Shown here piece after piece: positions 27,254 to 54,733 of a stretch of 64,000 bases of DNA. A model generated the notes under the pieces. It searched no databases. It worked only from the letters and a program-made list of their open reading frames with translations, and was not told where the DNA came from. This DNA comes from Woeseiaceae bacterium. GTDB taxonomy: Bacteria > Pseudomonadota > Gammaproteobacteria > Steroidobacterales > Woeseiaceae. Position 1 is the stretch's first letter. Each line of letters starts with the position of its first letter. Location: contig JASJCQ010000003.1 of assembly GCA_030065915.1 (NCBI GenBank), positions 1 to 64,000 on the forward strand, read 5' to 3'. Both the position numbers and the translations under genes were made by a program.

Positions 27254-27261
27254 GCGCCGTA

Positions 27262-30945: not shown

Positions 30946-31016
30946 ATCAAGCCCTCCCTAAGGAATCCTGATCGCGCTCCGCTCTCGGCCGTCCGCGCTG
31001 ATCGGATCGATCGTTG

Positions 31017-31736: not shown

Positions 31737-31745
31737 TACTGACTC

Positions 31746-34632: not shown

Positions 34633-34886
34633 AGACGTACCCCCTGGGTCGGTCGTGCGTAGGCCGGGCGTCCCCTTCTTCTTATTTTTGTTGCATCCTT
34701 GCAAACGCCGTTCAAGACGCGGCTTCCCGGACGTTTCCTGATGCTGCGCCAGCGGAGAATGATTATGAATCGTGGTTCTTACCTACTCATAAAGTCGAAC
34801 TGAATGAGAATGAGGAGCATTCAAATCAATGGCCCGCGAAACTTCGAGCAGGAGTACACTGTCGAAACCGGAGCGCGGATCGGACA
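34633..34886. promoter_or_regulatory. Divergent intergenic region upstream of hupS
   Basis: This region must contain the hup operon promoter (minus) and one for the 87-aa gene (plus). I found no convincing -24/-12 (sigma-54) or -35/-10 pair. A small inverted repeat (TGAATG at 34801-34806, CATTCA at 34818-34823) lies 64 bp upstream of the plus-strand gene and is only a weak operator candidate. Confidence 0.35.
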
Positions 34887-37141: not shown

Positions 37142-38905
37142 GTGTCCACAGCGAGCCGAGCAGCGGCCGGCCAGAAGCTGGCCGAGTACAACAACAATCC
37201 TGTCAACGTCCTGCAGATCATGCGGCAGATCCAGCTGCAGGCGGGCTGCGTCGATGCGGATGCCATCGAGATGCTGTCGGATGGACTGGGCATACCACGC
37301 GCGCAGCTTTTGGCGCTGGTGCAGTTCTACAGCTTCCTGCACCTGGAGCCACGCGGTAAGTACGACCTGTATCTGAGCGATAGCATCACCGATCGCATGC
37401 TCGGCAGTCTCGAAACTGCCGAGGTGCTGACCCGTGAGCTCGGTCTGTCGCCGGAGGGGCACTCGGAGGACGGTGAGATCTCGCTGTCGACAACATCCTG
37501 TACCGGGCTCTGTGAGCGTGGGCCCGCGATGATCGCCAACGGTCATGCCATTCAGCGCGTCGATACGAAACGTGCGAAGGAGATCGCCAAGTTGATCACC
37601 TCCGGTATTCCTGTCGAAGACTGGCCCGTCGTCTGGAAGGCGATAGACGACGTCATCGTCAAGAAGGGGCCCCTGCTCGGCAAGACGCTGACGCCAGGCG
37701 CCGCGATCGAGCGCGCGATGCGTCTCGGCCCGCACCTGACCATCGCCGAGCTGGAAGTGTCCGGTCTGCGCGGCTGCGGCGGTGCGGGCTTCCCGACGCA
37801 CCTGAAATGGGAGACCTGTCGGTCCATCGACGCCGACCAGCGCTTCGTCGTCTGCAATGCGGACGAGGGCGAGCCCGGTACATTCAAGGATCGCGCGCTA
37901 TTAAATCAGTACGCCGAGGTCTTGCTCGAAGGCATGACCGTCTGCGCGGTCACGATCGGCGCGAAGACGGGTTACATCTACCTGCGGCACGAGTATGAAT
38001 TCCTGCGTGCCCAGCTGCTGCAGCACATCGAGGCTCGCCGGGAAGCCGGGCTGCTCGGCCGCAACATTCTTGGCCACCACGGCACCGACTTCGAGATCTA
38101 TGTCTACATGGGCGCGGGCAGCTACGTGTGTGGCGAGGAATCCGCACTGCTCGAGTCGCTGGAAGGCAAGCGTGGCATTCCACGCATCCGGCCGCCATTC
38201 CCCGTCACCCGCGGCCTGTGGGGCAAGCCGACAATCGTCAACAACGTCGAGACGCTGTGTTACGCCGCCGGCATCCTCGAGCACGGCGCCGCGTTCGTCA
38301 TGCATAAAGGCAATGAGCCTGGCTGGAAGCTCTTGAGCGTCAGCGGCGACTGCGCCAAACCGGGCATCTATGAGATCCCGCTGGGCACACCGATCAGCGA
38401 GGTACTGGCCGAATGTGGCGCCAGCGACGTGCAGGCTATCCAGGTCGGCGGCCCCGGTGGCGAACTGATATCCGAAGAGGAATCCGGGCGTTTGCTGCCG
38501 TTCGATGACGTGAACACCGGCGGCTCGTTCATCGTCTTCGATTCGACGCGCGACATGTTCGACGTGGCGTCGAACTTCACGCACTTCTTCGCCCACGAGA
38601 GCTGCGGTTTTTGCACGCCGTGTCGTGCGGGCACAAAGCTGATGGCGCAGATGACCGACAAGATCCTGGACGGCCATGGCGCGAGACTGGACATCGACCA
38701 GATTCATACGCTGAATCGCGTCATGACCCAGGCCAGCCACTGCGGGCTCGGCCAGAAGGCGGCGGTCCCAATCCTGACGACCTTCGAGAAGTTCCCGGAG
38801 AGCTTCCACCAGCGCATGGAAGATGTGGATTACAAACCGGCCTTCGATGTGGACGCCGCAATCGAACGCTCAAGGGAAATTGTTAGCGAGGAGAGGTCAA
38901 GCTAA
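37142..38905 (+). CDS. hoxF: NAD-linked hydrogenase diaphorase subunit HoxF
   Basis: A 587-aa protein read from a GTG with AGGTGA upstream. Residues 1-150 are NuoE-like, but only the second cysteine pair (C120 and C124 in TSCTGLCERG) remains of the four [2Fe-2S] ligands. Residues about 175-570 are NuoF-like: NAD/FMN-binding GCGGAGFPTHLKW and CNADEGEPGTFKDR, GAGSYVCGEESALLESLEGK, and the 4Fe-4S ligands SCGFCTPCRAG plus the Cys of SHCGLGQ. It oxidises or reduces NAD with electrons from HoxUY. It is the first gene of hoxF-UY-H-W, overlapping hoxUY by 1 bp. Confidence 0.93.
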   Translation: MSTASRAAAGQKLAEYNNNPVNVLQIMRQIQLQAGCVDADAIEMLSDGLGIPRAQLLALVQFYSFLHLEPRGKYDLYLSDSITDRMLGSLETAEVLTRELGLSPEGHSEDGEISLSTTSCTGLCERGPAMIANGHAIQRVDTKRAKEIAKLITSGIPVEDWPVVWKAIDDVIVKKGPLLGKTLTPGAAIERAMRLGPHLTIAELEVSGLRGCGGAGFPTHLKWETCRSIDADQRFVVCNADEGEPGTFKDRALLNQYAEVLLEGMTVCAVTIGAKTGYIYLRHEYEFLRAQLLQHIEARREAGLLGRNILGHHGTDFEIYVYMGAGSYVCGEESALLESLEGKRGIPRIRPPFPVTRGLWGKPTIVNNVETLCYAAGILEHGAAFVMHKGNEPGWKLLSVSGDCAKPGIYEIPLGTPISEVLAECGASDVQAIQVGGPGGELISEEESGRLLPFDDVNTGGSFIVFDSTRDMFDVASNFTHFFAHESCGFCTPCRAGTKLMAQMTDKILDGHGARLDIDQIHTLNRVMTQASHCGLGQKAAVPILTTFEKFPESFHQRMEDVDYKPAFDVDAAIERSREIVSEERSS

Positions 38906-40170
38906 TGAGCCAGACCATCAAAATCGATGGCGTAACCGTTCCGTTCGTCGAGGGCCAGACGATCATCCAGGCCGCACAGGATGCGGACATCTTCATTCCT
39001 CACCTGTGCTATCACCCCGACTACTCGGCGAACGGCAGCTGCAAGATGTGCACCTGTCGCGTCAACGGCCGACAGATGTCGAGCTGCACGACGAAGGCCG
39101 CCGCGGGCCAGGTCGTCGAGAGCAACACCGAGGAGATCAACTCGGAGCGGCGCGTGCTGGCGCAGATGCTATTCGTTGAGGGCAACCATCACTGCCCGTC
39201 CTGCGAACAGAGTGGCAACTGCGTGCTGCAGAACATGGCGCACCGGCTCGGCATGACGGCGCTGACATTCCCGAATTTTTATCCGGGCAGGCCGACCGAC
39301 GCCAGCCATCCCGACATCCTCCTGAACCGGGACCGCTGCATCTACTGCGAGCTGTGCGTACGCGCGTCTCGCGAATCCGATGGCAAGGACGTGTTCTGCA
39401 TCAGTGGACGCTCCGAGAACAAACGATTGGCCATTAATTCCAGAAGCGGCGAGCTGCTTGACTCAGGCCTGACGCGCGACGATGCGGCGGCCAGTGTCTG
39501 CCCGGTCGGCGCGTTGATTCGCAAGCGCGAAGGCTTTGCCACCCCGATCGGTGAACGCGAGTTCGACCGCAACCCGGGGCAGGCCGTCAATATCCGCGCG
39601 GGCACCCTGCCGAAGCTGCCGCGGCAGCCCGGACAGAAAATTCGCGTCGCGACCTGCTCGTTGGCGGGCTGCTTCGGCTGCCACATGTCGCTGCTCGATA
39701 TCGATGAGCGACTCGTCGATCTCGTCCAGGTCGTCGAGTTTGATCGTACCCCGCTCGATGACATCAAGGACTTCACCCAGGACTGCGATATCGGGCTGAT
39801 CGAAGGCGGTGTCTGCAATACCGAGAACGTCGAGACGCTGCGCAAGTTCCGTAAGCACTGCAAGGTCCTGATCGCCGTCGGCGCCTGCGCAATTAATGGC
39901 GGAGTACCGTCACTGCGCAACGGCATCGACGTACGCGAGCTGCTGGAGACCTCATACGTCGACGGGCTGGGTGTCGACAACCCCGGCATACCGACGGACC
40001 CCGAGCTACCGTATATTCTGGAGAACGTGAGTCCGATTCACGAGGTCGTCAAGGTGGACTATTTCCTGCCGGGCTGTCCGCCGCCCGCCGATGCGTTCTG
40101 GCATATCCTGAGCAACATCGCCCAGGATGAGCAGCCGGATCTGCCGTATGACCTCATGCACTTTGACTGA
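38905..40170 (+). CDS. hoxUY: HoxU-HoxY fusion: diaphorase small subunit joined to hydrogenase small subunit
   Basis: A 421-aa continuous reading frame. Residues 1 to about 225 are HoxU/NuoG-like: [2Fe-2S] ligands CYHPDYSANGSCKMCTC and SSC, a His-Cys cluster motif HHCPSCEQSGNC, and a further cluster DRCIYCELC with SVCPVGAL. After a linker of about 20 residues rich in Pro and Gly, residues 244-421 are HoxY: proximal-cluster cysteines CSLAGCFGCHMSLLDIDERL, GACAINGGVP and PGCPPPADA, ending like a normal HoxY. In Cupriavidus necator and cyanobacteria these are two genes. The fusion would hard-wire the electron path between modules. No stop or frameshift is visible at the junction. Confidence 0.93.
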   Translation: MSQTIKIDGVTVPFVEGQTIIQAAQDADIFIPHLCYHPDYSANGSCKMCTCRVNGRQMSSCTTKAAAGQVVESNTEEINSERRVLAQMLFVEGNHHCPSCEQSGNCVLQNMAHRLGMTALTFPNFYPGRPTDASHPDILLNRDRCIYCELCVRASRESDGKDVFCISGRSENKRLAINSRSGELLDSGLTRDDAAASVCPVGALIRKREGFATPIGEREFDRNPGQAVNIRAGTLPKLPRQPGQKIRVATCSLAGCFGCHMSLLDIDERLVDLVQVVEFDRTPLDDIKDFTQDCDIGLIEGGVCNTENVETLRKFRKHCKVLIAVGACAINGGVPSLRNGIDVRELLETSYVDGLGVDNPGIPTDPELPYILENVSPIHEVVKVDYFLPGCPPPADAFWHILSNIAQDEQPDLPYDLMHFD

Positions 40171-40180
40171 GACGAGACCG

Positions 40181-41659
40181 ATGACCTACCTCGAAACTGC
40201 AAGCAATCCGGAGACCCTCAACCGTGTCGTGATCGAGCCGATCACGCGCGTGGAAGGCCACGGCAAGGTGACGCTGCTGACCGACGCAGAGAACATCGTT
40301 CAGCAGGCGCGCCTGCATATCGTCGAGTTCCGTGGCTTCGAGCGTTTCATCCAGGGCCGACCTTACTGGGACGCGCCCGTCGTCGTGCAGCGGCTGTGCG
40401 GCATTTGCCCGGTCAGCCATCATCTCGCCGCCGGTAAGGCGATCGACCATATCGTCGGCGGCAGCGAATTGACGCCGGCCGCAAGAAAGCTCAGGGAGCT
40501 CGCGCACTACGGACAGCTGCTGCAGAGCCACGCGCTGCACTTCTTCATGCTGTGCTCTCCCGATCTGCTGTTTGGCTTCGAGAGCGATGTCGCGCAGCGC
40601 AACTTCTTTGCCGTCGTCGACAAGTATCCGGATATCGCGATCAAGGGCATTCGCTTGCGCAAGTACGGCCAGGAAGTCATCGCCGCGGTTCTCGGCAAGC
40701 GTGTGCATGGCACCGGCGCGATCCCGGGCGGCATGAACAAAGCCCTCGAAGCCGCCGAGCGCGACACGTTGATCACTGACTTCGAGCACATCCTCGAATG
40801 GTCAAAAGATGCTGTGGACCTCGCTCGCGACAGCTTCATGGCCAACATGCCGCACAATGACCGTTTTGGCAGCATGCGCTCGAACTACGTCAGCCTGGTT
40901 CGCGAAGACGGCGCGCTCGAGCTGTACGACGGCGTGTTCCGCGCCAAGGATCCGGATGGGAACATCATCTTTGACGGCGTCAGCGACCAGGAGTACCACC
41001 AGCATATTCGCGAGGAGGTACGGAACTGGAGCTACATGAAGTTCCCCTACCTGTCGGCGCTGGGGTCGGAGGCTGGCTGGTATCGCGTCGGCCCGCTGGC
41101 CCGCATGAACAACTGCGACTTCATTGACACGCCCCTGGCGGAGGCCGAACGCCGGCAGTACGCCGAATACGGCAAGGACGCACCGGTCGAGGCGTCGCTG
41201 GCCTATCACTGGGCGCGCATGATCGAACTGCTGCACTGTGCCGAGAAGATCCAGCAGCTGCTCGACGATCCCGATATTCTCAGTAGCGACCTGCTCGTCA
41301 AGGGCAATCGCACGTCGGAAGGCATCGGGGTCATCGAGGCAACGCGCGGCACGCTGATTCACCACTACGAGGTCGACGACAACGACCTGATCCGCAAGGC
41401 GAACCTGATCGTTGCGACCACGCACAACAACCAGGCAATGAACGAGGCCATTCGTCAGGTAGCGCAGGAGAAGCTGGACGGCGAAGAGATCAACGAGCCA
41501 CTGCTGAACAACATCGAGGTCGCGGTGCGCGCCTACGACCCGTGCCTGTCGTGCGCGACGCACGCGGTCGGCAAGATGCCGCTGAAGGTGGAGCTGGTCA
41601 ATCACAAAGGCGAGCTCGTGCACAGCCTGCGTCGGGATTCGGATGGCACGGTCAGCTGA
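40181..41659 (+). CDS. hoxH: NAD-linked [NiFe]-hydrogenase large subunit HoxH (group 3d type)
   Basis: A 492-aa catalytic subunit. The ATG at 40181 follows hoxUY by 10 bp. N-terminal VVIEPITRVEGHGKVTLL is the group 3 opening. The L1 motif is RLCGICPVSHHLAAGKAID and the L2 motif DPCLSCATH, followed by a C-terminal extension (AVGKMPLKVELVNHKGEL and on) that a maturation protease removes. Assignment to group 3d rests on partnership with HoxF/U/Y. It overlaps the protease gene by 17 bp. Confidence 0.96.
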   Translation: MTYLETASNPETLNRVVIEPITRVEGHGKVTLLTDAENIVQQARLHIVEFRGFERFIQGRPYWDAPVVVQRLCGICPVSHHLAAGKAIDHIVGGSELTPAARKLRELAHYGQLLQSHALHFFMLCSPDLLFGFESDVAQRNFFAVVDKYPDIAIKGIRLRKYGQEVIAAVLGKRVHGTGAIPGGMNKALEAAERDTLITDFEHILEWSKDAVDLARDSFMANMPHNDRFGSMRSNYVSLVREDGALELYDGVFRAKDPDGNIIFDGVSDQEYHQHIREEVRNWSYMKFPYLSALGSEAGWYRVGPLARMNNCDFIDTPLAEAERRQYAEYGKDAPVEASLAYHWARMIELLHCAEKIQQLLDDPDILSSDLLVKGNRTSEGIGVIEATRGTLIHHYEVDDNDLIRKANLIVATTHNNQAMNEAIRQVAQEKLDGEEINEPLLNNIEVAVRAYDPCLSCATHAVGKMPLKVELVNHKGELVHSLRRDSDGTVS

Positions 41660-42179
41660 TCCCTCGCTGGTCGTATTCGCCTGGGGCAACCTGAGCCGTG
41701 CCGATGATGGCGCGGGGCCTGAGCTTGCGGAGCGGCTGCGGACACTACGGCTCGACGAACTGTTGATCATCGAAGACATGCAGCTGCAGATCGAGCACAC
41801 GGCGGACATCGTGCCGGACGTGCCGATCCTGTTTATCGATGCGAGCGTCGCAATCACGGAAGGCTTTGCGCTGCAGCGGCTGAAGCCGCGACCGGATGCC
41901 AGCGTGACGACGCACGCGCTTTGCCCGACCGCGTTGCTGCAGCTCTATGAGACGACGGCCCGACGCCCTTCGCCGCCCGCTTACCAGCTGCACATCGCGG
42001 GACAGAGTTTCGAGCTGGGCGAGGAACCCGGCGAGGTCAACGCCAGCGCCACCGAAGCCGCGTGGGCCTACCTCGAGGATTTGCTGGCACGACCGCCGGG
42101 CAGCTGGGGACGGGTGTTGGAATGCGATAGTGTCGAGCGGCTCGAGCAGGCTCGGGCCGTTTCAGCGACCGCCGTATAG
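41643..42179 (+). CDS. hoxW: HoxH maturation endopeptidase (HoxW-like)
   Basis: A 178-aa protein of the hydrogenase protease family: VVFAWGNLSRADDGAGPELA (first nickel-sensing Asp), LLIIEDMQLQIEHTADIV, ILFIDASVAITEGFAL and THALCPTALLQLYE with the conserved His. Compared with HupD the G-x-G-N motif is altered to AWGN. It overlaps hoxH and ends the hox operon. It is presumably specific for HoxH, as these proteases generally recognise one large subunit each. Confidence 0.9.
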   Translation: MARSADPSLVVFAWGNLSRADDGAGPELAERLRTLRLDELLIIEDMQLQIEHTADIVPDVPILFIDASVAITEGFALQRLKPRPDASVTTHALCPTALLQLYETTARRPSPPAYQLHIAGQSFELGEEPGEVNASATEAAWAYLEDLLARPPGSWGRVLECDSVERLEQARAVSATAV

Positions 42180-44227: not shown

Positions 44228-46030
44228 TTACTTTATATAGCGAATATCGTCCAGGTAGAACGTGACGGGCGAGGTCCGGCCTTCGATGGAAACGAAGAAG
44301 CCTGTCTTGATGCTGGAAAGGTCGGCGCCTTTCAGCGGCACGCGATAGAGCGTCCATTCATCGGTCAGATCGACGTTCTCGACCTTCTCCATCGCAGAAT
44401 CAGGATACGCCCGATCCGTTCCCAGTAAACCGACGCCGAAGCTGATCCTTTCGCCGCCGTATTTGCCGCGAGCCCAGAACTCCAGCGCGGTGGCGCCCTC
44501 GAGATTGTAGCCACCGTCCTGGTCGCCCCAGTTACCCGACGGATGCTGCCACGCGACACCGGCCCAGTTGTAGACGCCTTCATAGCGTATACGGATGCAG
44601 TGCTCGCCGGTCTTCGGATTACCGCTGTGGTTACCGTCGACCGTCAGGGCGTCGACGTTACCCATCCAGCCGGATGGGGCCCAAGGCCCCGTGTCGAAAG
44701 TGTCATCGTAGACCGCGAGCGGCAGACGCGTGCGAGGCGTTCCTTTGACGAGCAACGGCAGGTTTGCCGTCGCCGCTTTGCCGGCTTCATCGTAGACATA
44801 GTAATAGAGGCGATAAGCGCCCGGCTCGGCCGGCATCTCGATCGTCGCCGATGCGACGCTGCTCTCGGCCACGACGCCGTCGATCTCGGCCGGCGTCGGG
44901 CGGAAATCGCCCCCGGTAAGGAAATCGTTGGTCTCGGGGAGCAGCACCCAGCGTGCCGTGATTTCGTCGCCTTCCGGATCGCTGACAGCGACTTCAACTT
45001 TCAGCGTCGTGCCCGGATCCATCTCGGCAGACCGATCGATCCTGAGCGGTTCCACTCGCGGCGCAAGGTTCTCAGGCGCGGCGCCCGACCACAATCGCGT
45101 CATCGTATCGATGGCCCCGGTCGGCGCACCGTCCGCGAGAAACATGCCGTGCCAGGTCGGCGTGCCTTCCATCTTGTGACCCCAGATGAATGCATAGCCG
45201 CCCAGGGCACGATGCGGCTGGCTCAGGATCGCTTCGTTGTACGCCCTTTCGTAGAAAGCCGCCTTGTCCGTGCTGGTTTGCTCGATCGGCGCCTCCCACG
45301 CTGTCTTCGGCATCTCCCAGGCACCGACGGCGCCGAACTCCGTCATCACGTAGGGTTTGCTGGCGCCGCCATCGTCGAGAAACTGTGGAATGACGACGGC
45401 GCCGCCGTAGGCGTTGATGCCGTGGATATCGATCGCAGGCATCTTGTTGTGCACCCAGTCGATGCGCTCGCCGTGCACGAACGTCGTGGTCGTCATCGTC
45501 GGGTGGTTGGGGTCTATCTCCTTCACCATCGCCGCGATGTCGTTCACTGCTTTCCAGATCGCCGGGTTCTCGCCGTTCTCGAAGCCCTCCATCTCGTTGC
45601 CGATACCCCAGAGGAGGACGGCGGGATGATCCTTGTAGCGCATCACGATGTCGCGCGACCGATTGAACTGGACCTCAACCTGCTTCGGGTCGTCATAGTC
45701 GAAGCCGTGACGCTCGTGGCCGAGCCAGATGCCGACGCTCACGGACAGGCCGAGCGCGTGGGCCTCATCCAGCAGGACCCGCAGATCTTCGTCGCCACGG
45801 ACATCGAGACCGTCCCAGGTGCGGATGGAGTTACCGCCGGCCTCCGCCAGCTGTGCCAGCGAATCGTGGCCGCCGGCGCCACGAATGAAATAGGGCTCGC
45901 CGCCGCGCAGCAGCTGCCAGCCCTGTTCGGTCTTCTTGAGCTCGACAGGAATCGCTTCTGCCATCGAATTCGTCCATGAAAAAAAGAACCCTGCGAGTAG
46001 CAGGGTTCTTAAGCTATTGCCGTGAAGCAT
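44228..46030 (-). CDS. Secreted GH2-like TIM-barrel glycosidase with C-terminal carbohydrate-binding module
   Basis: A 600-aa protein. From the ATG at 46030 the N-terminus is a plausible signal peptide (cleavage after SMAEA), although its codons coincide with a terminator; an alternative ATG gives a start at MAEAIPVE. Residues about 30-320 form a clan GH-A barrel: GWQLLRGGEPYFIRGAGGHD, acid/base Glu146 in WGIGNEMEGF, nucleophile Glu231 in YVMTEFGAVG. A cadherin/PKD-like domain follows (about 340-440), then a jelly-roll CBM (about 445-600). The barrel resembles that of the 1055-aa barrel protein upstream. A beta-glucan substrate is inferred from GH16 neighbours. Confidence 0.85.
   Translation of the reverse strand: MLHGNSLRTLLLAGFFFSWTNSMAEAIPVELKKTEQGWQLLRGGEPYFIRGAGGHDSLAQLAEAGGNSIRTWDGLDVRGDEDLRVLLDEAHALGLSVSVGIWLGHERHGFDYDDPKQVEVQFNRSRDIVMRYKDHPAVLLWGIGNEMEGFENGENPAIWKAVNDIAAMVKEIDPNHPTMTTTTFVHGERIDWVHNKMPAIDIHGINAYGGAVVIPQFLDDGGASKPYVMTEFGAVGAWEMPKTAWEAPIEQTSTDKAAFYERAYNEAILSQPHRALGGYAFIWGHKMEGTPTWHGMFLADGAPTGAIDTMTRLWSGAAPENLAPRVEPLRIDRSAEMDPGTTLKVEVAVSDPEGDEITARWVLLPETNDFLTGGDFRPTPAEIDGVVAESSVASATIEMPAEPGAYRLYYYVYDEAGKAATANLPLLVKGTPRTRLPLAVYDDTFDTGPWAPSGWMGNVDALTVDGNHSGNPKTGEHCIRIRYEGVYNWAGVAWQHPSGNWGDQDGGYNLEGATALEFWARGKYGGERISFGVGLLGTDRAYPDSAMEKVENVDLTDEWTLYRVPLKGADLSSIKTGFFVSIEGRTSPVTFYLDDIRYIK
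45979..46010 (-). terminator. Canonical intrinsic terminator inside the GH2-like 5' coding region
   Basis: On the minus strand an 11-bp perfect stem (AAGAACCCTGC and its complement at 45984-45994 and 46000-46010), a 5-nt loop and a run of seven T. It lies 37 bp after the stop of the lipoprotein gene at 46048, so it fits that gene's 3' end, yet it falls in codons 7-17 of the GH2-like gene. Confidence 0.85.
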
Positions 46031-46047: not shown

Positions 46048-46833
46048 TCAGAACTCGCCCGCAACGATGACGCCATCGTCAAAGTTCGGCGGGCTGGCCG
46101 GCTGGTACGAATAACCCCACTCGAGCAGCAACTCCAATACGTTGATCGGGTCGCCGGGCACGAGCCGGCGCAGGCCCGTCGCGTCAGTGCGATACAGGTT
46201 GTCTGCCGTCAACTCGTTCAGAGGAATGGCAAAAGCCACCGGCTCGCCATCGGGGCTGGCCGCCGGGCAACACTCGAACACCGTTACCGAGCCGAAGAAG
46301 TTGTCCAGCAAAGAGCGATACGCTTTCTTCGCCTGCTCACGAATCAGCTCGTCTTCGTCCAACACGTTACTGTTTGCATCAAACAACTCGTGCAGCGCCA
46401 GTGCCGTGTAGAACTGATTTTCACCGCTCGGACGACGCGCCAGTGCGGTTGCCCACAGGTAGAAGCGCGCCTTGGCCCCGCTCGGCCCGGCCGGGATCGA
46501 GTTGAATAACTCGAACTTGTTATCCAACCCCGGGAAGTTCGGGTTGAACTCGATGATCGTCGTCGTCGCGAACGGGTTCTCCGGATCGTCGAGTACGCAG
46601 GTCTCCGGGTGGACACCGACGTCCTCGCAGGCCAGGTTCAGGACCACGTCGGTCGGCAGCGTGATTGCATTGATGGGAATACCGTCATCCGCATCTCGCT
46701 CGCCCCCGTTGCTGCATCCACCCAACACCAGGGCCGTTACGCTCAGTACCGCTGCAAACAGAAGCTTGATGCCAGCCGGCCGAGTCTCGTCTCGATTCAG
46801 TTTTGTCATTTTCATAAATCCTAGGCTTTTCAT
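46048..46833 (-). CDS. Unknown lipoprotein of the glucan locus
   Basis: A 261-aa lipoprotein (LSVTALVLGGC). The start at 46833 has AGGACAGAGC, an excellent ribosome-binding site overlapping the upstream stop; internal ATGs at 46815 and 46809 also have AGGA. The mature part contains Cys pairs (LACEDVGVHPETC, FECCPAAS) and a helical middle (FYTALALHELFDANSNVLDE, REQAKKAYRSLLDNFFGSV), and ends with INVLELLLEWGYSYQP. No family is recognised. It is 8 bp downstream of the barrel-glycosidase gene, so the two probably form one outer-membrane unit. Confidence 0.75.
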   Translation of the reverse strand: MKSLGFMKMTKLNRDETRPAGIKLLFAAVLSVTALVLGGCSNGGERDADDGIPINAITLPTDVVLNLACEDVGVHPETCVLDDPENPFATTTIIEFNPNFPGLDNKFELFNSIPAGPSGAKARFYLWATALARRPSGENQFYTALALHELFDANSNVLDEDELIREQAKKAYRSLLDNFFGSVTVFECCPAASPDGEPVAFAIPLNELTADNLYRTDATGLRRLVPGDPINVLELLLEWGYSYQPASPPNFDDGVIVAGEF

Positions 46834-46841
46834 GCTCTGTC

Positions 46842-49800
46842 CTAAAACTGGTAGGTGAAGTAAAGAATGGTCTGGAACTGGTAGTCGCCATTGACGTCGA
46901 ACAGTTCGTCACCCTCCTCGAGCGCCCGGTACTGCGCGCGAATTCCGACTCTCGTCGCGCGCTCTTCGTCCTGCACCGAGCCGAACTGAACGCCCGAGCC
47001 GCCGAGCAACATCGAGTAATCGAGCTGCCACTGGTCGCTGTATTGCAGGTTGAACTGGCGGAAGAAGTCGTACGGACCGAAAGCATCTTGCTTGTAGTAG
47101 CCCGAGAAGAAGTGCTTGCGATTCCATTCCGCACTCCAGTGGAACTCGAAGTAGTCCGCGGTGCCGTCATTCTTGCCACCCGGGTTGCCCGATGCCTGCT
47201 CGAAACCGCGCATGATGTCGAAGATGTAGCGCGCCGACGGGTTCGGGTTCATGACGATGCGGCTGGAAACGCCCCAGACGTCCTCAGCCGGGAAGCCCGT
47301 GCCGAAAGGAACGTTCTGTCCAATGGGCTCGAAGAAGAACAGGTAGGAGTCCGTAAACGTCGGGTACTCGGTATAGGTGCCGCCGATGTTGAACGCGAAC
47401 TTCGCGTCTTCACGCCAGTCGTTGTCCCAATCGTAGAACTGGGTGGCGCCGGTCGGATCGTAGGTCAGGTACAGCTCCGCCGAACGCGCCTCGCGATTGC
47501 CGAGAACGGCGAACGGGTCGGTGTCCGTATCCCTCGGCTGCGTGCCCGGCAGCAACACCCCACCCTCGATGCTCGGGAAGATCGTCGGGTTTGCATGCAC
47601 GAGGTTGTCTCGATACAGCACGCGCGGCATCAGCATATAGTCTCCGAAGCGCACGATCATGCCGGCCTCAATCTCCTGCTTGTTGCCATCGCCGGAGTTC
47701 GGCAAGCGACTCGGATCCATGACACCGAATGTGCGATGCACGGTACCGGCGTCGGCAACGAGACCCTGGTGAGTCGCTTTCACGTAGGTCTCCTGCCACG
47801 GGAACGTGACCTTGGCGCGGAAGCCGAGTGCATCCTCATTCTCGATTTCGTCGAGGAACACGTTGCCCTGCCTGTCTATGCGGTCGAAGGTCTCGTCGAT
47901 CTCCTCGGGCGCGGAAATGATGCCGCCGAGCTCGAGCTTGATGCCGTTGGGGAATTCACGCTCCGCCGTCAGCGCCGTCTGACGATTCTGCCGGACGGTC
48001 GTATCGGTCGGATCAACACCGCTGTCACGACGCGCCAGGTCCTCGGAATGAATGAAGGTCCAGTCGAAGTTGGCCCAGCGGAAGTCATACTTGAACATAA
48101 ACTTGGGGTTGGCACCCCAGTACACCTCGGGACCGATCAGGAAGGTCAGGTTCTTGAAGTCGCCCTTGCCGGTGATCTCGAGACCCTGCGGTGCTTTGGC
48201 GTTCCAGATGTCCATGCCCGGAATATCCGTTGTTTCACGCAACAATCCCCAGTGGTCGCCTTCGTAACCCCAGTGGAACCGGGACGTGTGGTAGAAGGCC
48301 TCGACATCGGCAAGTTCACCCTCGTAGGTCGCGCTAAAGTCGTAGATCTCGACCCGCTCGCGGTCGTTAAAGGTGACCGGTACATCTTCGATAACGACGA
48401 TCTCGCCCCCAACACGGGTGCGCTCGTTCGTCTGGATCGACAGAGGGCGGCCGCGATCGCCGTAGGAAAACTCCAGTGGCTGCTTGTTCGCGACGTTGCC
48501 GAGGATGTTTACCGTCATCTGGCCCTGGGTCCTGTCGTTGGGCTGGAACTCGAAATCGAGGAAGGCCATCTGGCCATCCGAGAAAGACAGTGCGTCGTCG
48601 CCTTCCTCATCGATCCGCGCTTCGTTGCCCCTTAAGACCATCTCGCCTTCAAGGCGACCGCCGGTCAGCCTGAGCCTTCGCTTGTCTTCGGCGCTTTCGG
48701 CCGCCAGCTTGCCGACCTCGCCTTTAAGGTCGAGGAGCTCGAGATTGATGCCGGCGAAGAGCTGGTCGACGCCGTCCCTGTCAAGCTCCAGCGGGCTCTT
48801 GCTGAAGATTTGCTGCATCACGTAATAGGCCGTACGCGGACGGGCTGTCGCCACCCCCTCACTGTTGCTTGGGCCGAGAGCAACGATGCCGAACCACTCC
48901 TCGTTCATGTTGTTCTGCCCCGGCGCCCAGTCAAATTCATAACCCTGGTTGGCCCACGAGGCATTCGTGTTCTGGATGTCGAGCTGCTCGATCTGCAGGT
49001 ACTTCCACCACTCATCACGCCATTCGAAGATGAAGGCGCCGATTGAGTTGCCTTCCTCGCCCATGCCGTAGGACTTCTGGTACATCTCTTCCCACTGGTC
49101 TTTAAGGATCAGCGCCTGGTTCAACTGATCTTCCTGGAAGCTGCGAGCATTGAAGGCGTCACTGCCAAACTCGAAGAACGCCACCGGCAGATCGAGCTTT
49201 TCTTCGGCTACGGCCCACAGGTCCGTGAAGCTCTTGCCGCGATAGACGTTACTGCCCAGCACATCGAGCGACGGCATCAGCTCCTGGATCAGGTCGATGT
49301 ACTGCAGGTCACCGTTGACGATCGTGAACGGCTGGTTCGGTGCGATCGCCTTACCGGCCGCGATGACTTCTTCGAAGAGGCTGTACAGGTAGCGTGCCTT
49401 GGCCGTGTTCTGCTCGCCCTCCGGCAGGTTCTCGATCTCGAAGCTGGACCATGACAGGCCATAGTTGCTCTCGTTACCGAAGGCAAACATCAGGACGCCC
49501 TTGGTGTCCTTGTAGCGCTCGACGAAGACCTGCATGTCTCGCTTGAGTACTTCGCGAGTCGCCGGATCCGAGTAGTCCGTAAACGGAACCCACTTGCCGT
49601 TGATGTTGTATCCGTAACGACCCATGAGCGGGTTGATGATGCTCATAATGCCGTGTTCTTCATAAATATAGGTCACCCACTTCGGCGGGATCATCGTGAA
49701 GGTACGGATCGTGTTGACGCCCATCTCCGCCATCAGGCCGAAATCGTAGTCCAGGATCTTGCGGATCTGGTCGTCGGACTGGCCGAACAGGTTGTACGTG

Positions 49801-50009
49801 TAGTTCTGCCCGCGCGGCGTGTAGCCCCACACGACGCCCTTCATGTAGTAGGGCTCGCCGTTCACGCGGAGCTGCCAGCCGTTCTCGTCCTTGTAGGTCG
49901 TAACGACGTCAGACTGCGCGTAACTGACTTGTGGGAGACAAAGCGCCAGCGCAAGCACGAACAACCCGAATGCGACCTTGACACGTTTCGTAAGGCTTAT
50001 TCCCGCCAT
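46842..50009 (-). CDS. GH2-like TIM-barrel glycosidase fused to an outer-membrane beta-barrel
   Basis: A 1055-aa protein. The ATG at 50009 yields a signal peptide (KVAFGLFVLALALCLPQVSY, AQ|S). Residues about 38-410 are a GH-A-type catalytic barrel: NGWQLRVNGEPYYMKGVVWG, acid/base Glu180 (FAFGNESNYG), nucleophile Glu280 (VAFFEFGSDAF). A short coiled coil (about 420-445) and a beta-sandwich-like region (about 450-545) follow. The remaining 500 residues alternate amphipathic strands with polar loops (FMFKYDFRWANFDWTFIHS, KLELGGII, YMLMPRVLYRDN, FHWSAEWNRKHFFSGYYKQD) and end in FQTILYFTYQF, a terminal Phe typical of BAM substrates. It appears to be a surface-tethered glycosidase-porin in one chain. 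Confidence 0.85.
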   Translation of the reverse strand: MAGISLTKRVKVAFGLFVLALALCLPQVSYAQSDVVTTYKDENGWQLRVNGEPYYMKGVVWGYTPRGQNYTYNLFGQSDDQIRKILDYDFGLMAEMGVNTIRTFTMIPPKWVTYIYEEHGIMSIINPLMGRYGYNINGKWVPFTDYSDPATREVLKRDMQVFVERYKDTKGVLMFAFGNESNYGLSWSSFEIENLPEGEQNTAKARYLYSLFEEVIAAGKAIAPNQPFTIVNGDLQYIDLIQELMPSLDVLGSNVYRGKSFTDLWAVAEEKLDLPVAFFEFGSDAFNARSFQEDQLNQALILKDQWEEMYQKSYGMGEEGNSIGAFIFEWRDEWWKYLQIEQLDIQNTNASWANQGYEFDWAPGQNNMNEEWFGIVALGPSNSEGVATARPRTAYYVMQQIFSKSPLELDRDGVDQLFAGINLELLDLKGEVGKLAAESAEDKRRLRLTGGRLEGEMVLRGNEARIDEEGDDALSFSDGQMAFLDFEFQPNDRTQGQMTVNILGNVANKQPLEFSYGDRGRPLSIQTNERTRVGGEIVVIEDVPVTFNDRERVEIYDFSATYEGELADVEAFYHTSRFHWGYEGDHWGLLRETTDIPGMDIWNAKAPQGLEITGKGDFKNLTFLIGPEVYWGANPKFMFKYDFRWANFDWTFIHSEDLARRDSGVDPTDTTVRQNRQTALTAEREFPNGIKLELGGIISAPEEIDETFDRIDRQGNVFLDEIENEDALGFRAKVTFPWQETYVKATHQGLVADAGTVHRTFGVMDPSRLPNSGDGNKQEIEAGMIVRFGDYMLMPRVLYRDNLVHANPTIFPSIEGGVLLPGTQPRDTDTDPFAVLGNREARSAELYLTYDPTGATQFYDWDNDWREDAKFAFNIGGTYTEYPTFTDSYLFFFEPIGQNVPFGTGFPAEDVWGVSSRIVMNPNPSARYIFDIMRGFEQASGNPGGKNDGTADYFEFHWSAEWNRKHFFSGYYKQDAFGPYDFFRQFNLQYSDQWQLDYSMLLGGSGVQFGSVQDEERATRVGIRAQYRALEEGDELFDVNGDYQFQTILYFTYQF

Positions 50010-50081
50010 AGCGATTACTCTTGTTTGATTATTTTCTTTGCAAACGTCGAAGTGTTTCATTGTCTTTATTCGCTCCCGACG

Positions 50082-53000
50082 TTAGTTAATTGTGAAAGTG
50101 ACGTTGTCAAACGAGACGTCCTGAGCGCAATCATCGAACGCAGCGCAAGCGACCTTCAACGACAGAACCAGGCCACCGCTCACATCCCATGAGCCGCCCC
50201 CTCCAGGCGCGACGAATCCCGTTCCCGCGGTTACCGTGCCTGTAACAGGCGTCCAGGTCGTGGTCGGGGAGAGTGGTGTTGGATCCCCGTTGAGGAAATT
50301 CCGGCCTCCTTCGTCCATGCCCATGCTATTCAGGAAGATCACTTCAGCAAACACGGCAGCACCGGGTTGGGTCACGGTTCCGTACAAGTCGAAAGTAACC
50401 GTGATCGTATCGCCAGCCGTTACCGTGCCTGCCGCCAGGCCCTCCTGGCTGATCACGGCATCGTTAAAGGATGCCGCAGTGCCGTCTACGATCAGCCTGG
50501 CCACAGTGCCTGTACGACCGCCCTGGCCGCTGCTGTCGGCAGCGATGGATCCGAGAGTGCCCCCAGCGTCATCAAACAGGCCCTGAGTCCAGCCGTCGAG
50601 GCTGCCGCCGTTGTCTTCGAAGTCGCCGTTGACGAGGACGGTGCTGCCACCGCCGCCGCCACCGCCACCGGTGACAACGAGTGCGACATCGTCGATGTAG
50701 ACCTCACCGGCCTCGCCGTTCAGGTCGAACAACACGCGGCTGTCGGCATCACCGAAACCGGTCGCTTCCAGGTCGAGCGAGAAGTCCTGCCAACCGGTGT
50801 TCAGGTCGACCGGAACTGAGTTATTCGAGAAGTCAGTGTTCGACGGGCCGCCCGACAAACCGATGCCTGCAATGATCGCACGCGCGGTATTGGACCTTGC
50901 CTTGAATGTCAGCGTGTAGGTCTCGTCCGGCGTGATCGCAAGCTTCTGACTGAGGTTCACCGCGAACGCCGACATCGGGTCAGGCGAAGTGATGTCGACG
51001 AAGTGCACGTTGTTGCCGCCGACGTTGACGATCCTCTCAGCCAGAATCGGATCGGTCACGCCTGCGAGCCACGGCGAAACCCCGGACTCGAAGTCGCCGT
51101 TGGTCAGCAACCCGCTGTCGTGCGCCGGGATTGCCGGGCACGCAGACGACGTCTGCTGGATGTCATCGTACTCGAAGGTCCAGTTGGCCGGCTCTGTATC
51201 TGCGGCGCCCTGGAGGCCGTTGTCAAAGATCACCGTGTAGCCCGTGACGTCGCCAGCCTCGCCGGTAAAGTCAAAGCAAAGCTCCTCCCAGGTGCCGCTG
51301 CCACTGTGCCAGACAGCGCGCTCGATATTCAGGCCTTCCAGCTTGAACGTGACGCGTACCGGCCGCGGTGAGCGAACCAGCATCGTGTAGGAGTCGCCGG
51401 CGGCAAGTGCGACAGCTCCGCCAAGGTCGTAGGTGCTTCCTCCGAACGGCTGACCCGGGAACTTCTGCATCTCGACGACTATCGCGCTGGTGTTGAGACC
51501 ACCGACATCCGGGTTTGGAACGGCAGCCGACATGCCACCATCGAAGTTGTTGAACATCGGGCTCCCCGACTCGAAGTCTACATCGCCGGGCGATCCGCCG
51601 CCGCCACCGCTGGTGGCACCGTCGACGGTCAGGCTCACGTCGTCAATATCGACCGTGCTCGCCACCGTACCGAGGTCGAACAACACCCGGCTGTCCGCAC
51701 CGCCGAAGCCGGTCGCGGTCAGGTTCAACGTGAACGTCCGCCAATCGGTCGTCACGGCAACGTCCTGTGTCACCGCCGTGAACGGGTCCACGCTCAGGCC
51801 GATACCCACAACAATATTGCGATCCACCGTCGCCCGTGCGCGGAATTCCAGGACGTAATCCTCGTCCTGCGTGATATCCAGCACCTGGCTCAGGTTCGTG
51901 TCGAACACCATGCCGCCGTCGGCCGCGTCCGCCGTGTAGAAGTTATTGGTCGCAATCGTGCCCGCATTGATCCACGGCGCCTTGTCCGTCGCACTGGTCT
52001 GGAAGTCGCCGTTCGTCAGTAGCTCGGCGCCGCCGCCACCGTCGACGGTCAGGCTCACGTCGTCAATTTCGACCGTGCTCGCCACCGTGCCGAGGTCGAA
52101 CAGCACCCGGCTGTCCGCACCGCCGAAGCCGGTCGCGGTCAGGTTCAACGTGAACGTCTGCCAATCGGTCGTCACGGCAACGTCCTGCGTCACCGCCGTG
52201 AACGGATCCACGCTCAGGCCGATACCCACAACAATATTGCGATCCACCGTCGCCCGTGCGCGGAAGGTCAGCACGTAATTCTCGTCCTGCGTGATATCCA
52301 GCACCTGGCTCAGGTTCGTGTCGAACACGGCGCCACCGTCAGCCGCGTCTGCCGTGTAGAAGTTGTTGACCGCAACGGTGCCCGCGTTGATCCAAGGCGC
52401 TTTGTCCGTCGCGCTCGCCTCGAAGTCACCGTTTGTCAGCAGCTCGCCGCCACCGGTTGGAGGAGGAGTACCGCCGCCGCCAGGTCCGACAGCAATGTCA
52501 TCGAAGTAGTAGGTCTGGGCACCGGCCATCGCGCCGGTGGCGCCAAAGTTCGGGAAAACGATGACCTTGTCGTAGGTTGCCGCCGGGTCGAAAGCGGGTG
52601 TGTCGGTCACGTTGTTGGTGAAATCGAACTGCAACGTTTCCCAGGTCATCGCCATCGTCGTCGACGTCTCTGTCTCGACGCTGATTGCGCTGGCGCCGGA
52701 GTTTTCGATCTTCAGGCGAATCGGCGTGCCGGCCATCGGCGACCAGACTCGCATGGACATGATCGTGCTCGACGCATCCAGCGGGATGACGCCCGAAGAC
52801 TCATTGGCGCCGGTCGATACGACGGTGCCGGCGAAGATATCCGCGGAGTCGGAACGATTGATCTGCAGTACATTGTTGCTCGCGTCTTCGGGATCTGCGA
52901 CGACAGAAGAATCCTCGGCGCCGCCGAAGCCACGGAGCGTGTACGTCGTGCCGGCGTCATCGAATGTCAGCGTTGTGAACGCAGCCGGGGGCGGGCCGCC

Positions 53001-53621
53001 GCTACCGGCGCAGCTGTCTACCTGCTCGATGTCGTCGTAGTAGAAGGTCCAGTTAGCCGGGTCGCTTGCCGCCTGACCCTGCGTACCGAGATCGAAAATG
53101 ATTGTCAGGCTCGGGTTCGAGATGCCTGCCGCGGCGCCATCGAACGTCACGCAGAACTGCTGCCACTCGCTGCCGCCGGTGTGCGTGAAGAAGCGCTCGA
53201 TGTTCGACTCGTCCGTCTTGAACAACACCTCGACTGAGCGCGGTGACCAGACCTTGATATTGAACGACTCACCCTGCGAGAAGTCGATCGGGTCGCTGTA
53301 AGTCAGTTTCGTTCCGCCAAACACCTCGTCCATGAACTTCTGCATCTGCGCGACGTTGTCACTCGTGTTGATGCCGCTCTTGTCCGGGTTCTCGATGATC
53401 GTCGTTGCGCCGCCGTTGAAGTTAATGATCTCGGGCGCTTCGCAGAAGATCTCGAAGTTGGTCGGGTCGCAGAAATCTGCCGGCAAGTCCGGTAGTGGAT
53501 CTGCGGGCGAGTTTGCGATCGGCTCTGGACCGTCACCTTCTCCGAAACAGCCAGCCAGGAACAGGGCCGATGTCAGAAGGGTCAGGGCGCGGAATTCACG
53601 CGTAAATGCTTTTGCTTGCAT
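50082..53621 (-). CDS. Multi-module carbohydrate-binding lipoprotein
   Basis: An 1179-aa protein with lipobox SALFLAGC (Cys25). No catalytic motif; the chain is a string of beta-sandwich modules. In order: type A (about 55-205, EIINFNGGATTIIENPDKSG), B (about 215-380, FDDAGTTYTLRGFGGAEDS), C and C' (about 395-675, two near-identical CBM4/9-like units beginning ELLTNGDFE), A' (about 690-840, FNNFDGGMSAAVPNPDVGG), C'' (about 850-995) and D (about 1005-1179, VLVNGDFEDNGGSLDGWTQG). Gly-rich linkers join them. It is likely outer-membrane anchored for glycan capture and is followed 72 bp later by the barrel-glycosidase. Confidence 0.85.
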   Translation of the reverse strand: MQAKAFTREFRALTLLTSALFLAGCFGEGDGPEPIANSPADPLPDLPADFCDPTNFEIFCEAPEIINFNGGATTIIENPDKSGINTSDNVAQMQKFMDEVFGGTKLTYSDPIDFSQGESFNIKVWSPRSVEVLFKTDESNIERFFTHTGGSEWQQFCVTFDGAAAGISNPSLTIIFDLGTQGQAASDPANWTFYYDDIEQVDSCAGSGGPPPAAFTTLTFDDAGTTYTLRGFGGAEDSSVVADPEDASNNVLQINRSDSADIFAGTVVSTGANESSGVIPLDASSTIMSMRVWSPMAGTPIRLKIENSGASAISVETETSTTMAMTWETLQFDFTNNVTDTPAFDPAATYDKVIVFPNFGATGAMAGAQTYYFDDIAVGPGGGGTPPPTGGGELLTNGDFEASATDKAPWINAGTVAVNNFYTADAADGGAVFDTNLSQVLDITQDENYVLTFRARATVDRNIVVGIGLSVDPFTAVTQDVAVTTDWQTFTLNLTATGFGGADSRVLFDLGTVASTVEIDDVSLTVDGGGGAELLTNGDFQTSATDKAPWINAGTIATNNFYTADAADGGMVFDTNLSQVLDITQDEDYVLEFRARATVDRNIVVGIGLSVDPFTAVTQDVAVTTDWRTFTLNLTATGFGGADSRVLFDLGTVASTVDIDDVSLTVDGATSGGGGGSPGDVDFESGSPMFNNFDGGMSAAVPNPDVGGLNTSAIVVEMQKFPGQPFGGSTYDLGGAVALAAGDSYTMLVRSPRPVRVTFKLEGLNIERAVWHSGSGTWEELCFDFTGEAGDVTGYTVIFDNGLQGAADTEPANWTFEYDDIQQTSSACPAIPAHDSGLLTNGDFESGVSPWLAGVTDPILAERIVNVGGNNVHFVDITSPDPMSAFAVNLSQKLAITPDETYTLTFKARSNTARAIIAGIGLSGGPSNTDFSNNSVPVDLNTGWQDFSLDLEATGFGDADSRVLFDLNGEAGEVYIDDVALVVTGGGGGGGGSTVLVNGDFEDNGGSLDGWTQGLFDDAGGTLGSIAADSSGQGGRTGTVARLIVDGTAASFNDAVISQEGLAAGTVTAGDTITVTFDLYGTVTQPGAAVFAEVIFLNSMGMDEGGRNFLNGDPTPLSPTTTWTPVTGTVTAGTGFVAPGGGGSWDVSGGLVLSLKVACAAFDDCAQDVSFDNVTFTIN
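51621..52460 (-). repeat. Tandem 420-bp duplication inside the carbohydrate-binding lipoprotein gene
   Basis: Two head-to-tail copies with a period of exactly 420 bp (140 codons): the anchor GTCGACGGTCAGGCTCACGT occurs at 51621 and again at 52041. Most of each copy is identical at DNA level, with only scattered substitutions, so the duplication is recent or maintained by gene conversion. Confidence 0.9.
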
Positions 53622-53752: not shown

Positions 53753-54733
53753 CTAATCGGGCCTCACACCCGAATACACCCTGACCCAGTCGACCAGCAT
53801 CGACGCGGGCAGCGCGGTGTTATCCACGTCATCGCCCGGGAAGCTGCCGCCGACCGCCGTGTTCAGGATGATGTAGAACGGCTGGTCAAACGGTGCGGGG
53901 AAGTCGCCACCTGTCGAGGACCATGAGTTCTGCGTCAGCCACAGTACGTCGTCGAAATACCAGCGAATCTCGTTTTCATCCCACTCGACCGCATAGGTAT
54001 GAAAACCCTCGGTGATATTCGGCGATGGCGCATAGGTGTCGCCTGAAAATGCAATGTTTGGAGACTCGCCGCCGTAGTAGAGATTGCCGACGATGTTGTT
54101 GAAGCCGCCGCCGCCCGGGCCCGGCAGTGCACCGAGGTTGACGGCCTCGACGATATCAATCTCGCCGGTAGCAGCCCAGCGACCGTAGGGGCTGCCCTGC
54201 GACAGCAGCCAGAATGCAGACCACAGGCCCTGACCGGCCGGGAACTTGATCTTCGCAGCGATCCGCCCGTAGCGGACGTTGACGCGATCGCGTGTCGTGA
54301 TGCGGGCAGATGTGTAGTTGAATCCTTCGATCGACTCAGACCGCGCGGTGATCCTCAGGAAACCGTTTTCTAGCTGGGCGTTGCGCGGAAGGTAGTACTG
54401 CTTTTCAAAGTTGCCCCAGCCCGGTGGCAGGCCCATGACGCCGCCGTCGCCGATAAACTCGGAACCGTCGCCGGTGGCGAAGAACCACGTCTCGGGGTCG
54501 AGCTGGTCGCCATCGAACTCGTCACTCCAGACGAGGTTAAAGGTGCCGCCCGGCGTGACCTCAACAAGATCGAAGACGGCAGTCGTCGGGTTGCTGATGT
54601 TGACGTTCTGCTGAATGTCAGCCGGTTGAGTGTTGGTCAGGCCCTGTGGCTGACTGCCGTTGTTACATGCAGCCAGAGTCAACGATGCGGCCAAGACGGC
54701 CGGACAGATAATCCTACTTCTCTTTGGAAGCAT
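53753..54733 (-). CDS. GH16 endo-beta-glucanase (laminarinase-type) lipoprotein
   Basis: A 326-aa lipoprotein (VLAASLTLAAC, Cys22) with a short tether and one GH16 domain. FNLVWSDEFDGDQLDPETWF opens the catalytic domain, the active-site motif is TGEIDIVEAVN with the ExDxxE pattern, and FHTYAVEWDENEIRWYFDDV and LNTAVGGSFPGDD complete it. It would cut beta-1,3-glucans endo-fashion at the cell surface or in the periplasm. It heads the minus-strand glucan locus; its long 5' leader contains a strong hairpin and a palindrome that may control it. Confidence 0.92.
   Translation of the reverse strand: MLPKRSRIICPAVLAASLTLAACNNGSQPQGLTNTQPADIQQNVNISNPTTAVFDLVEVTPGGTFNLVWSDEFDGDQLDPETWFFATGDGSEFIGDGGVMGLPPGWGNFEKQYYLPRNAQLENGFLRITARSESIEGFNYTSARITTRDRVNVRYGRIAAKIKFPAGQGLWSAFWLLSQGSPYGRWAATGEIDIVEAVNLGALPGPGGGGFNNIVGNLYYGGESPNIAFSGDTYAPSPNITEGFHTYAVEWDENEIRWYFDDVLWLTQNSWSSTGGDFPAPFDQPFYIILNTAVGGSFPGDDVDNTALPASMLVDWVRVYSGVRPD

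Follow-up and report, generated by a model that had tools for sequence, protein, structure and literature searches.

An outer-membrane barrel predicted to carry its own glucanase domain: a candidate entry step for laminarin

How does a bacterium bring fragments of laminarin across its outer membrane? In Gram-negative cells entry is usually credited to SusC/D pairs or TonB receptors. A minus-strand gene of a Woeseiaceae bacterium (assembly GCA_030065915.1) raises the question of whether a channel with its own glycosidase could do the same work. We analyzed the first 64,000 nucleotides of contig JASJCQ010000003.1, referred to below as the window. A first-pass annotation had read the gene as a secreted glycosidase resembling glycoside hydrolase family 2 (GH2), built onto a porin-like barrel that cuts polysaccharide at the pore entrance and imports the products. 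The fusion of a β-glucanase-like domain to an outer-membrane barrel in one chain is well supported, and we hold it with high confidence. With moderate confidence, and from sequence and predicted structure, we propose that this enzyme-bearing channel would provide the outer-membrane step of laminarin uptake with neither SusC/D nor TonB being needed, the enzyme domain facing the periplasm.

Enzyme and barrel in one chain

The fusion gene and its parts are as follows; residue numbers count from the ATG at 50009, the start used in the first-pass annotation.

46842..50060, minus strand: glycosidase-barrel fusion gene (open frame; alternative ATG at 50009)
49917..50009, minus strand: signal peptide, residues 1-31 (by eye from the sequence)
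48807..49916, minus strand: GH158/GH157-like catalytic domain of clan GH-A, residues 32-401 (structure prediction, profile and fold comparison)
49470-49472, minus strand: codon of Glu180 (alignment with GH158)
49170-49172, minus strand: codon of Glu280 (alignment with GH158)
48684..48779, minus strand: linker of two helices, residues 411-442 (models; weak seven-residue hydrophobic repeat)
46848..48674, minus strand: predicted 26-stranded outer-membrane barrel, residues 446-1054 (structure prediction, fold search)

The chain comprises 1072 amino acids from the first ATG (50060) and 1055 from the ATG at 50009. Because an extension like the one ahead of the 50009 start is also present in two related frames (L021 and L024), the true start may be 50060. 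Across the same coordinates the plus strand holds three stops. Judged by eye, residues 1-31 form a hydrophobic leader that ends in LPQVSYA and is followed by Q, which bears out the secretion signal of the first-pass annotation.

In the model of the mature chain, a triosephosphate isomerase (TIM) barrel is predicted for residues 32-401, beginning at the mature N-terminus. Glu180 and Glu280 (149 and 249 in mature numbering), both named earlier as catalytic, are Glu in all 46 sequences of an alignment of the window protein with 45 relatives under 72% identity. They line up with the GH158 motifs GNE and EFG/EWG, and Asn179 is likewise invariant (46/46). The arrangement is that of clan GH-A, with model strand 141-147 running into N148-E149, and E249 lying within strand 245-250 (mature numbers). 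Whole-chain structure comparison with VIA matched clan GH-A enzymes, and GH158 and GH157 ranked first or tied in profile and fold comparison. The profile match to the GH158 enzyme GH158(Pro) (9oro; E = 2.3e-7) is distant and covers only part of the domain; a single-sequence search with the fusion returned no GH158 match at E <= 1, and GH157 (9g4n) was absent from the sequence-profile search at E <= 1.

GH2 enzymes place an N-terminal sugar-binding sandwich and immunoglobulin-like (Ig-like) domains ahead of the TIM barrel, whereas in our model no domain precedes it. The GH2 model PF02836 matches the window protein at E = 0.06 (12.9 bits versus a cut-off of 21); it matches 27 of the 46 rows at E <= 0.001, and the fusion of a Sediminicola locus (L096) exceeds the cut-off. 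Because PF02836 stays below its cut-off in the window protein and the GH158 profile match is stronger, we rejected the GH2 label for it. The TIM-barrel glycosidase described at first pass stands, its GH2 assignment does not, and by sequence and model the enzyme is nearer to the GH158/GH157 endo-β-1,3-glucanases.

Does this domain cut glucan at all? It might instead cut little and serve in the periplasm as a cap, or as a binding module that controls the pore or passes sugars along. The solved structures nearest to it are of glucan-binding enzymes, and among the model segments of lowest confidence two (mature 150-166 and 304-320) lie within the enzyme domain, the first directly after the acid/base, all of which would suit such a role. 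A mere cap would have no need of Asn179, Glu180 and Glu280, and their invariance makes us regard this explanation as improbable.

The model of the mature chain had a mean predicted local distance difference test score (pLDDT) of 83 and a predicted template modelling score (pTM) of 0.64. Since the TIM domain filled the whole-chain VIA comparison, we modelled residues 409-1055 separately (pLDDT 85, pTM 0.81). Both models contain the same 26 main strands of at least seven residues and seven short ones, and from residue 446 on the strands form one predicted barrel of about 610 residues. In the VIA comparison of the barrel model, the 50 listed entries can be told from their titles to be membrane barrels (AlgE, Occ porins, MOMP, chitoporin, ScrY, LamB, Wzi, PapC/FimD ushers, OmpM1, TonB receptors and human VDAC1), except 8agd, whose title is silent on a barrel and which we take to be a Deinococcus barrel complex. 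Foldseek gave a similar picture, with 49 of the 50 listed titles, LptD included, naming outer-membrane barrels; the other, 4q35, is titled 'a membrane protein' and is presumably a membrane barrel as well. The Foldseek template modelling scores were modest (0.17-0.42), and none was a close match. The prediction for the C-terminal half is thus a barrel and not the β-helix or soluble sandwich that would have told against the first-pass annotation.

Residue alternation agrees with this prediction. The test gave z = 5.0 for the C-terminal half versus -0.1 for the TIM part, and a mean z of 4.1 for the barrel (barrel values cover 40 of the 65 rows of a second alignment, the window and 64 relatives under 90% identity; TIM values cover 30 of the 46). 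Elsewhere the means were 2.9 for 30 TonB-receptor chains (0.9-4.6), -0.6 for 15 SusD proteins and 1.1 for 23 longer partner lipoproteins, which are described below. On the predicted strands alone, alternation was 0.69 versus 0.34, above all 2,000 shuffles. The window protein ends in Phe, as do 20 of the 46 rows in total, the others ending in L, K, N, M, I, D, R or W. Of the amphipathic strands ending in Phe annotated at first pass, the amphipathic character and the Phe hold, but the region spans about 610 residues and not about 500. The coiled-coil/sandwich joint proposed to precede them is reduced to the two helices of residues 411-442; a separate β-sandwich was rejected, as both models make the strands in question part of the barrel.

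In the window protein, the barrel is not covered by any Pfam family. Among the 65 barrel members, weak Pfam matches are scattered (DUF6882 in five, best E = 0.00019, and four other families in one member each), and the barrel profile found no relative among solved structures at E <= 10. A plug domain (PF07715) was found neither in the window chain nor in the 65 barrel rows or the 46 full-chain rows. We conclude that a barrel family without a Pfam entry is hidden under automatic 'GH2' naming.

Which side of the membrane the enzyme faces

With strands counted back from the C-terminus, the outer loops average 19.8 residues and the inner turns 5.8 (65 rows); the difference is significant in a one-sided rank test for length (p = 0.0003) and for length variation (p = 0.026). 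The prediction combines a signal peptide, a barrel, short inner turns and long outer loops, as in outer-membrane barrels. Because 26 is an even number of strands, and because of the loop-length pattern, both ends of the barrel would be periplasmic; therefore the enzyme, which precedes strand 1, would lie on the periplasmic side as well. Strand parity and loop lengths in the model put it there, and the cutting at the outer pore entrance envisaged at first pass is not borne out.

An enzyme outside the cell that cuts polysaccharide at the pore entrance and feeds the products into the pore would share with our reading the fusion and the glucan context, both of which are real. Four loops are unusually well conserved, three outer (574-607, 629-635 and 978-988) and one inner (851-870), with values of 0.74-0.88 versus 0.50 for the strands, and the three outer ones could fit an enzyme docking from outside. 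We nevertheless consider an outside enzyme unlikely, given the strand parity and loop pattern, and for surface display the N-terminal domain would have to pass outward through the barrel in the manner of autotransporters. Autotransporter barrels are far smaller, with far fewer strands, and a classical autotransporter was rejected on that ground. In porins the outer loops are usually the most variable part, and since three of them are conserved here, we infer that the four loops handle substrate or narrow the pore.

A glucan-degrading neighborhood kept across phyla

Five minus-strand genes stand close together (gaps of 131, 21, 8 and 17 bp), with the fusion in third place; the others are, in order of transcription:

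53753..54733, minus strand: GH16 lipoprotein, likely an endo-β-1,3-glucanase (PF00722, E = 9.3e-22; lipobox by eye)
50082..53621, minus strand: lipoprotein with multiple carbohydrate-binding modules (CBMs), 21 bp before the fusion (CBM_4_9 in three stretches; lipobox by eye)
46048..46833, minus strand: small partner lipoprotein, 8 bp after the fusion (no Pfam model; lipobox by eye)
44228..46030, minus strand: GH158 enzyme with a C-terminal CBM30-like region (profile and Pfam matches)

The two flanking lipoproteins confirm the co-encoded pair reported at first pass. The GH158 enzyme of the window, a gene separate from the fusion, matches 9oro at E = 4.2e-97 and 6pal at E = 4.3e-62; its CBM30-like region is a weak match (E = 0.016) below the cut-off.

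Elsewhere in the window, by eye, positions 22051-28118, 30229-34704 and 37142-42179 hold two apparent [NiFe]-hydrogenase clusters with maturation genes, one on the minus strand that comprises the large and the small subunit and a pair of cytochrome-b-like genes, the other Hox-type and on the plus strand. An mtrB/PioB-like barrel gene at 62113-64000, continuing on the same contig (C34:64225-70493, L100), is followed by genes with CxxCH-rich starts, which suggests an extracellular electron transfer system (also by eye).

How general is the setting? We searched 82 loci by tblastn, 44 of them flanked by 8 kb or more on each side. GH16 was found in 64 loci, GH149 in 43, GH17 in 42, a major facilitator superfamily (MFS) transporter in 33, GH30 in 29, GH3 in 19 and GH158 in 10. 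In the 44 well-flanked loci the counts were 43 for GH16, 26 for GH149, 25 for GH17, 21 for MFS and 19 for GH30, and every one of the 44 held at least one of the six enzyme families. GH149 was assigned by a match of 2053 bits to 6hq6, a β-1,3-oligosaccharide phosphorylase, and GH17, GH30 and MFS_2 by Pfam. We also scanned 56 unlabelled neighbor frames (same strand, 200-1,000 amino acids, within 8 kb; high-GC and near-duplicate loci skipped); of the 75 Pfam families matched, the first 25 listed comprise sugar transporters, GH1 and glucose-6-phosphate/Entner-Doudoroff enzymes, among others. These results bear on a reading in which the channel exports cell-made glucan, as AlgE does alginate, and the glycosidase trims it. 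We find this the least probable of the explanations considered here, and remote: the neighbors are catabolic (GH16, GH149, GH17, GH30, MFS), glycosyltransferase family 2 occurs in only two of the 56 frames, and, in the passages describing it, a Formosa cluster in which an MFS-GH17 fusion stands together with GH16, GH17 and GH30 responds to laminarin (PMC6246565).

Downstream of the fusion, a lipoprotein was recognized in at least 69 of the 77 loci where this could be tested (lipobox pattern limited to 150 bp). L019, among the eight misses, is positive by another lipobox pattern, which scored 58 of 77 with some hits far downstream and likely false. The partner lipoproteins of Gammaproteobacteria and Myxococcota form one family (profile probability 100%, 34% identity); this small family, which has no Pfam model, always stands directly after the fusion in loci where it was seen. 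Profile comparison found no relation between it and the longer, mainly Bacteroidota, partner lipoproteins (probability 0.8 and 0.3%); among the 23 longer ones is a single row from Gammaproteobacteria (L036), in which a stretch of the small family is present. One Bacteroidota partner has Big_2 and weak CBM30-like regions.

Two loci illustrate the gene sets. That of Sediminicola (L096) holds a regulator, the fusion, GH16, GH149 and GH17. In Leucothrix arctica (L041) the set comprises GH16, GH30, the fusion, the small lipoprotein and GH149, after which a family-5 solute-binding protein and permease-like and ATPase-like genes follow (L041:17456-22965). Because of these last genes, oligosaccharides may in L. 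arctica enter the cytoplasm by ATP-binding cassette (ABC) transport.

Full-length relatives, among the best 80 of 189 confirmed stretches, are 35-88% identical to the window fusion, the closest named one coming from a Woeseiaceae metagenome-assembled genome (L017, 88%); six truncated relatives (L037, L044, L046, L052, L063 and L081) were left out of the alignments, leaving 74. By record title they fall under eight phylum labels (Pseudomonadota, Bacteroidota, Myxococcota, Gemmatimonadota, Balneolota, Zixiibacteriota, Eiseniibacteriota and Cloacimonadota), four of which rest on a single row each, and the domain pairing sought across genomes is thereby confirmed. Since a tree built by a quick method needs eight label changes, with seven the least possible, the family appears largely to follow the phyla. 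The fusion occurs in 19 of 60 relatives and 2 of 397 Pseudomonadota genomes (own genome included in both), and in 38 of 392 genomes of the Flavobacterium phylum (centre genome included). The long barrel matches, 44 in total (36 of the 39 listed in the Flavobacterium phylum, two in Pseudomonadota and six further), all lie within open frames of 1,012-1,200 amino acids, a length that leaves room for the enzyme, which itself was read in the aligned rows; a free-standing full barrel was not found in these searches. Three partial barrel matches occur in the Flavobacterium phylum (G696, G580 and a second piece in G665). A phage or plasmid origin was rejected, as the phage collection gave no match to the fusion and only 2 of 72,556 plasmid records, both Bacteroidota replicons, did.

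Is the fusion found where the usual import systems are missing? We queried the loci with 30 TonB-receptor and 15 SusD sequences taken from carrier genomes. In most loci the flanks reached at most about 10 kb, and many were shorter still; SusD was found in none of the 82 loci and a TonB receptor in three (L023, L021 and L018, at 8.3, 10.4 and 11.0 kb).

Several observations weigh against an importer that dispenses with these systems. The own genome has 31 plug-domain hits, and a TonB receptor lies about 37 kb from the fusion (C34:87366-90377) with a tryptophan halogenase, GH16 and GH149. In a Flavicella genome (G460), the fusion lies about 14 kb from a TonB receptor and about 18 kb from a SusD. 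Since both genomes carry both, the fusion occurs alongside TonB routes and is not in every case a substitute for them. According to the passages on Formosa, TonB receptors and SusD proteins are found in the vicinity of its laminarin enzymes (PMC6246565). The loci are not independent, many coming from Flavobacterium and Myxococcaceae, the counts are raw and lack a random-locus control, and only 44 of the 82 have flanks of at least 8 kb on both sides. The alternation test separates poorly alone, with z = 2.8 for the multi-CBM lipoprotein of the window, 2.5 for a Bacteroides lipoprotein and only 1.2 for the mtrB-like window barrel. The absence of SusC/D and TonB receptors asserted at first pass thus holds for the neighborhood, but a TonB receptor stands beside GH149 and GH16 on the same contig.

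That receptor belongs to a second glucan cluster (C34:81144-95951; L100, L101), about 31-46 kb from the fusion, with GH16, the tryptophan halogenase and a GH149-like phosphorylase that is 45% identical to a GH149.

The TonB receptors of the own genome, one of them in a GH16/GH149 cluster, would also suit a barrel that is a mere membrane anchor for the glucanase, with uptake left to general porins or separate TonB receptors. A 26-stranded barrel with conserved, candidate inward loops would be an expensive means of anchoring when a lipid could suffice, and the fusion has been kept in one copy and one setting across phyla; we therefore judge this very improbable.

A proposed route for laminarin and its relation to known systems

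According to the reading we favor, surface lipoproteins (GH16 and the CBM proteins) would bind laminarin and cut it to oligosaccharides, which would diffuse through the wide, predicted 26-stranded barrel past its conserved, partly aromatic loops. The GH158-like domain, whose active-site residues are in place and which we deduce to be periplasmic, would cut β-1,3-glucan chains as they emerge; this would maintain an inward gradient and prevent return. GH158, GH17, GH30 and GH149, all present in the gene sets, together with MFS or ABC transporters would complete the breakdown in compartments assigned here by conjecture. The glycan-degrading import machine of the first-pass annotation is in this way kept as a one-chain fusion in a β-1,3-glucan-degrading neighborhood, without its outside cutting and its GH2 label. 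More tentatively, and with somewhat less than even confidence, we suggest an unrecognized importer, in which a plug-free barrel with a periplasmic endo-glucanase draws in laminarin fragments and stands in for SusC/D-TonB under eight phylum labels.

The barrels of AlgE, Occ porins, chitoporin, ScrY/LamB and PapC/FimD have 16-24 strands, compared with the 26 predicted here; they show no detectable sequence relation to the fusion barrel and carry no attached glycosidase. LaGH157 (9g4n), unlike the fusion, lacks a barrel. BuGH158 (6pal), in the passages describing it, has a C-terminal Ig-like domain (PMC7157763) where the fusion has linker helices and a membrane barrel. The SusC/D laminarin systems share with our proposal an outer-membrane step with surface lipoproteins and GH16; the fusion differs in having no plug and no SusD partner found in the 82 loci, and energy coupling is not expected.

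A close parallel is FbGH17B of Formosa, an MFS-GH17 protein in which a transporter of the laminarin pathway is fused to a glycosidase, coupling cutting to uptake (PMC6246565). FbGH17B, however, is a helical inner-membrane transporter with a C-terminal GH17 domain, whereas the window fusion is an outer-membrane barrel with an N-terminal GH158-like domain. The same passages describe a cluster of GH17, GH30 and the MFS-GH17 fusion, the last being of a kind that the authors believed to be new, and a GH16 of this polysaccharide-utilisation locus (PUL) produced only on laminarin (PMC6246565). A conserved laminarin PUL of Muricauda is listed with LuxR, 'GH2', GH16, GH149, GH17, GH30 and MFS (PMC13188888). 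Its 'GH2 β-glycosidase' probably belongs to the fusion family, because the Sediminicola locus has a similar gene set and its fusion passes the GH2 Pfam cut-off; the passages on it treat the protein as a GH2 enzyme and leave a barrel unmentioned (PMC13188888).

GH149 clusters have been sorted, in the relevant passages, into Type I with an ABC transporter, Type II with a TonB receptor, and Bacteroidetes PULs, and the authors note that Type I clusters have no extracellular laminarinase and no outer-membrane transporter (PMC5827456). L. arctica has a Type I-like GH149 cluster in which the fusion fills that gap. Woeseiaceae sediment genomes are reported, in passages on them, to hold laminarin-type GH16, GH17, GH149 and GH158, with one SusC gene in seven of their PULs (PMC12175321), and Maribacter is described as using SusC/D for laminarin (PMC11345257). 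A barrel on a glycosidase goes unmentioned in the passages on these laminarin clusters, and titles and abstracts yielded no description of the fusion or its barrel, subscription papers and preprints lying mostly outside that search. The loci themselves are already in print, with the fusion protein probably called 'GH2' there.

Laminarin has been put at more than 10% of yearly global fixed carbon dioxide (PMC11345257). The locus appears to be a PUL with an enzyme-bearing channel as its outer-membrane step, and 79 of the 82 loci have a laminarin pathway with no TonB receptor within the flanks searched. The fusion is a concrete candidate for the outer-membrane step missing from published GH149 clusters. 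Its carriers include cultivable Flavobacterium, Leucothrix and Myxococcus, and, if the proposal is true, it would be, as far as our literature search shows, the first outer-membrane channel described that bears a glycosidase of its own.

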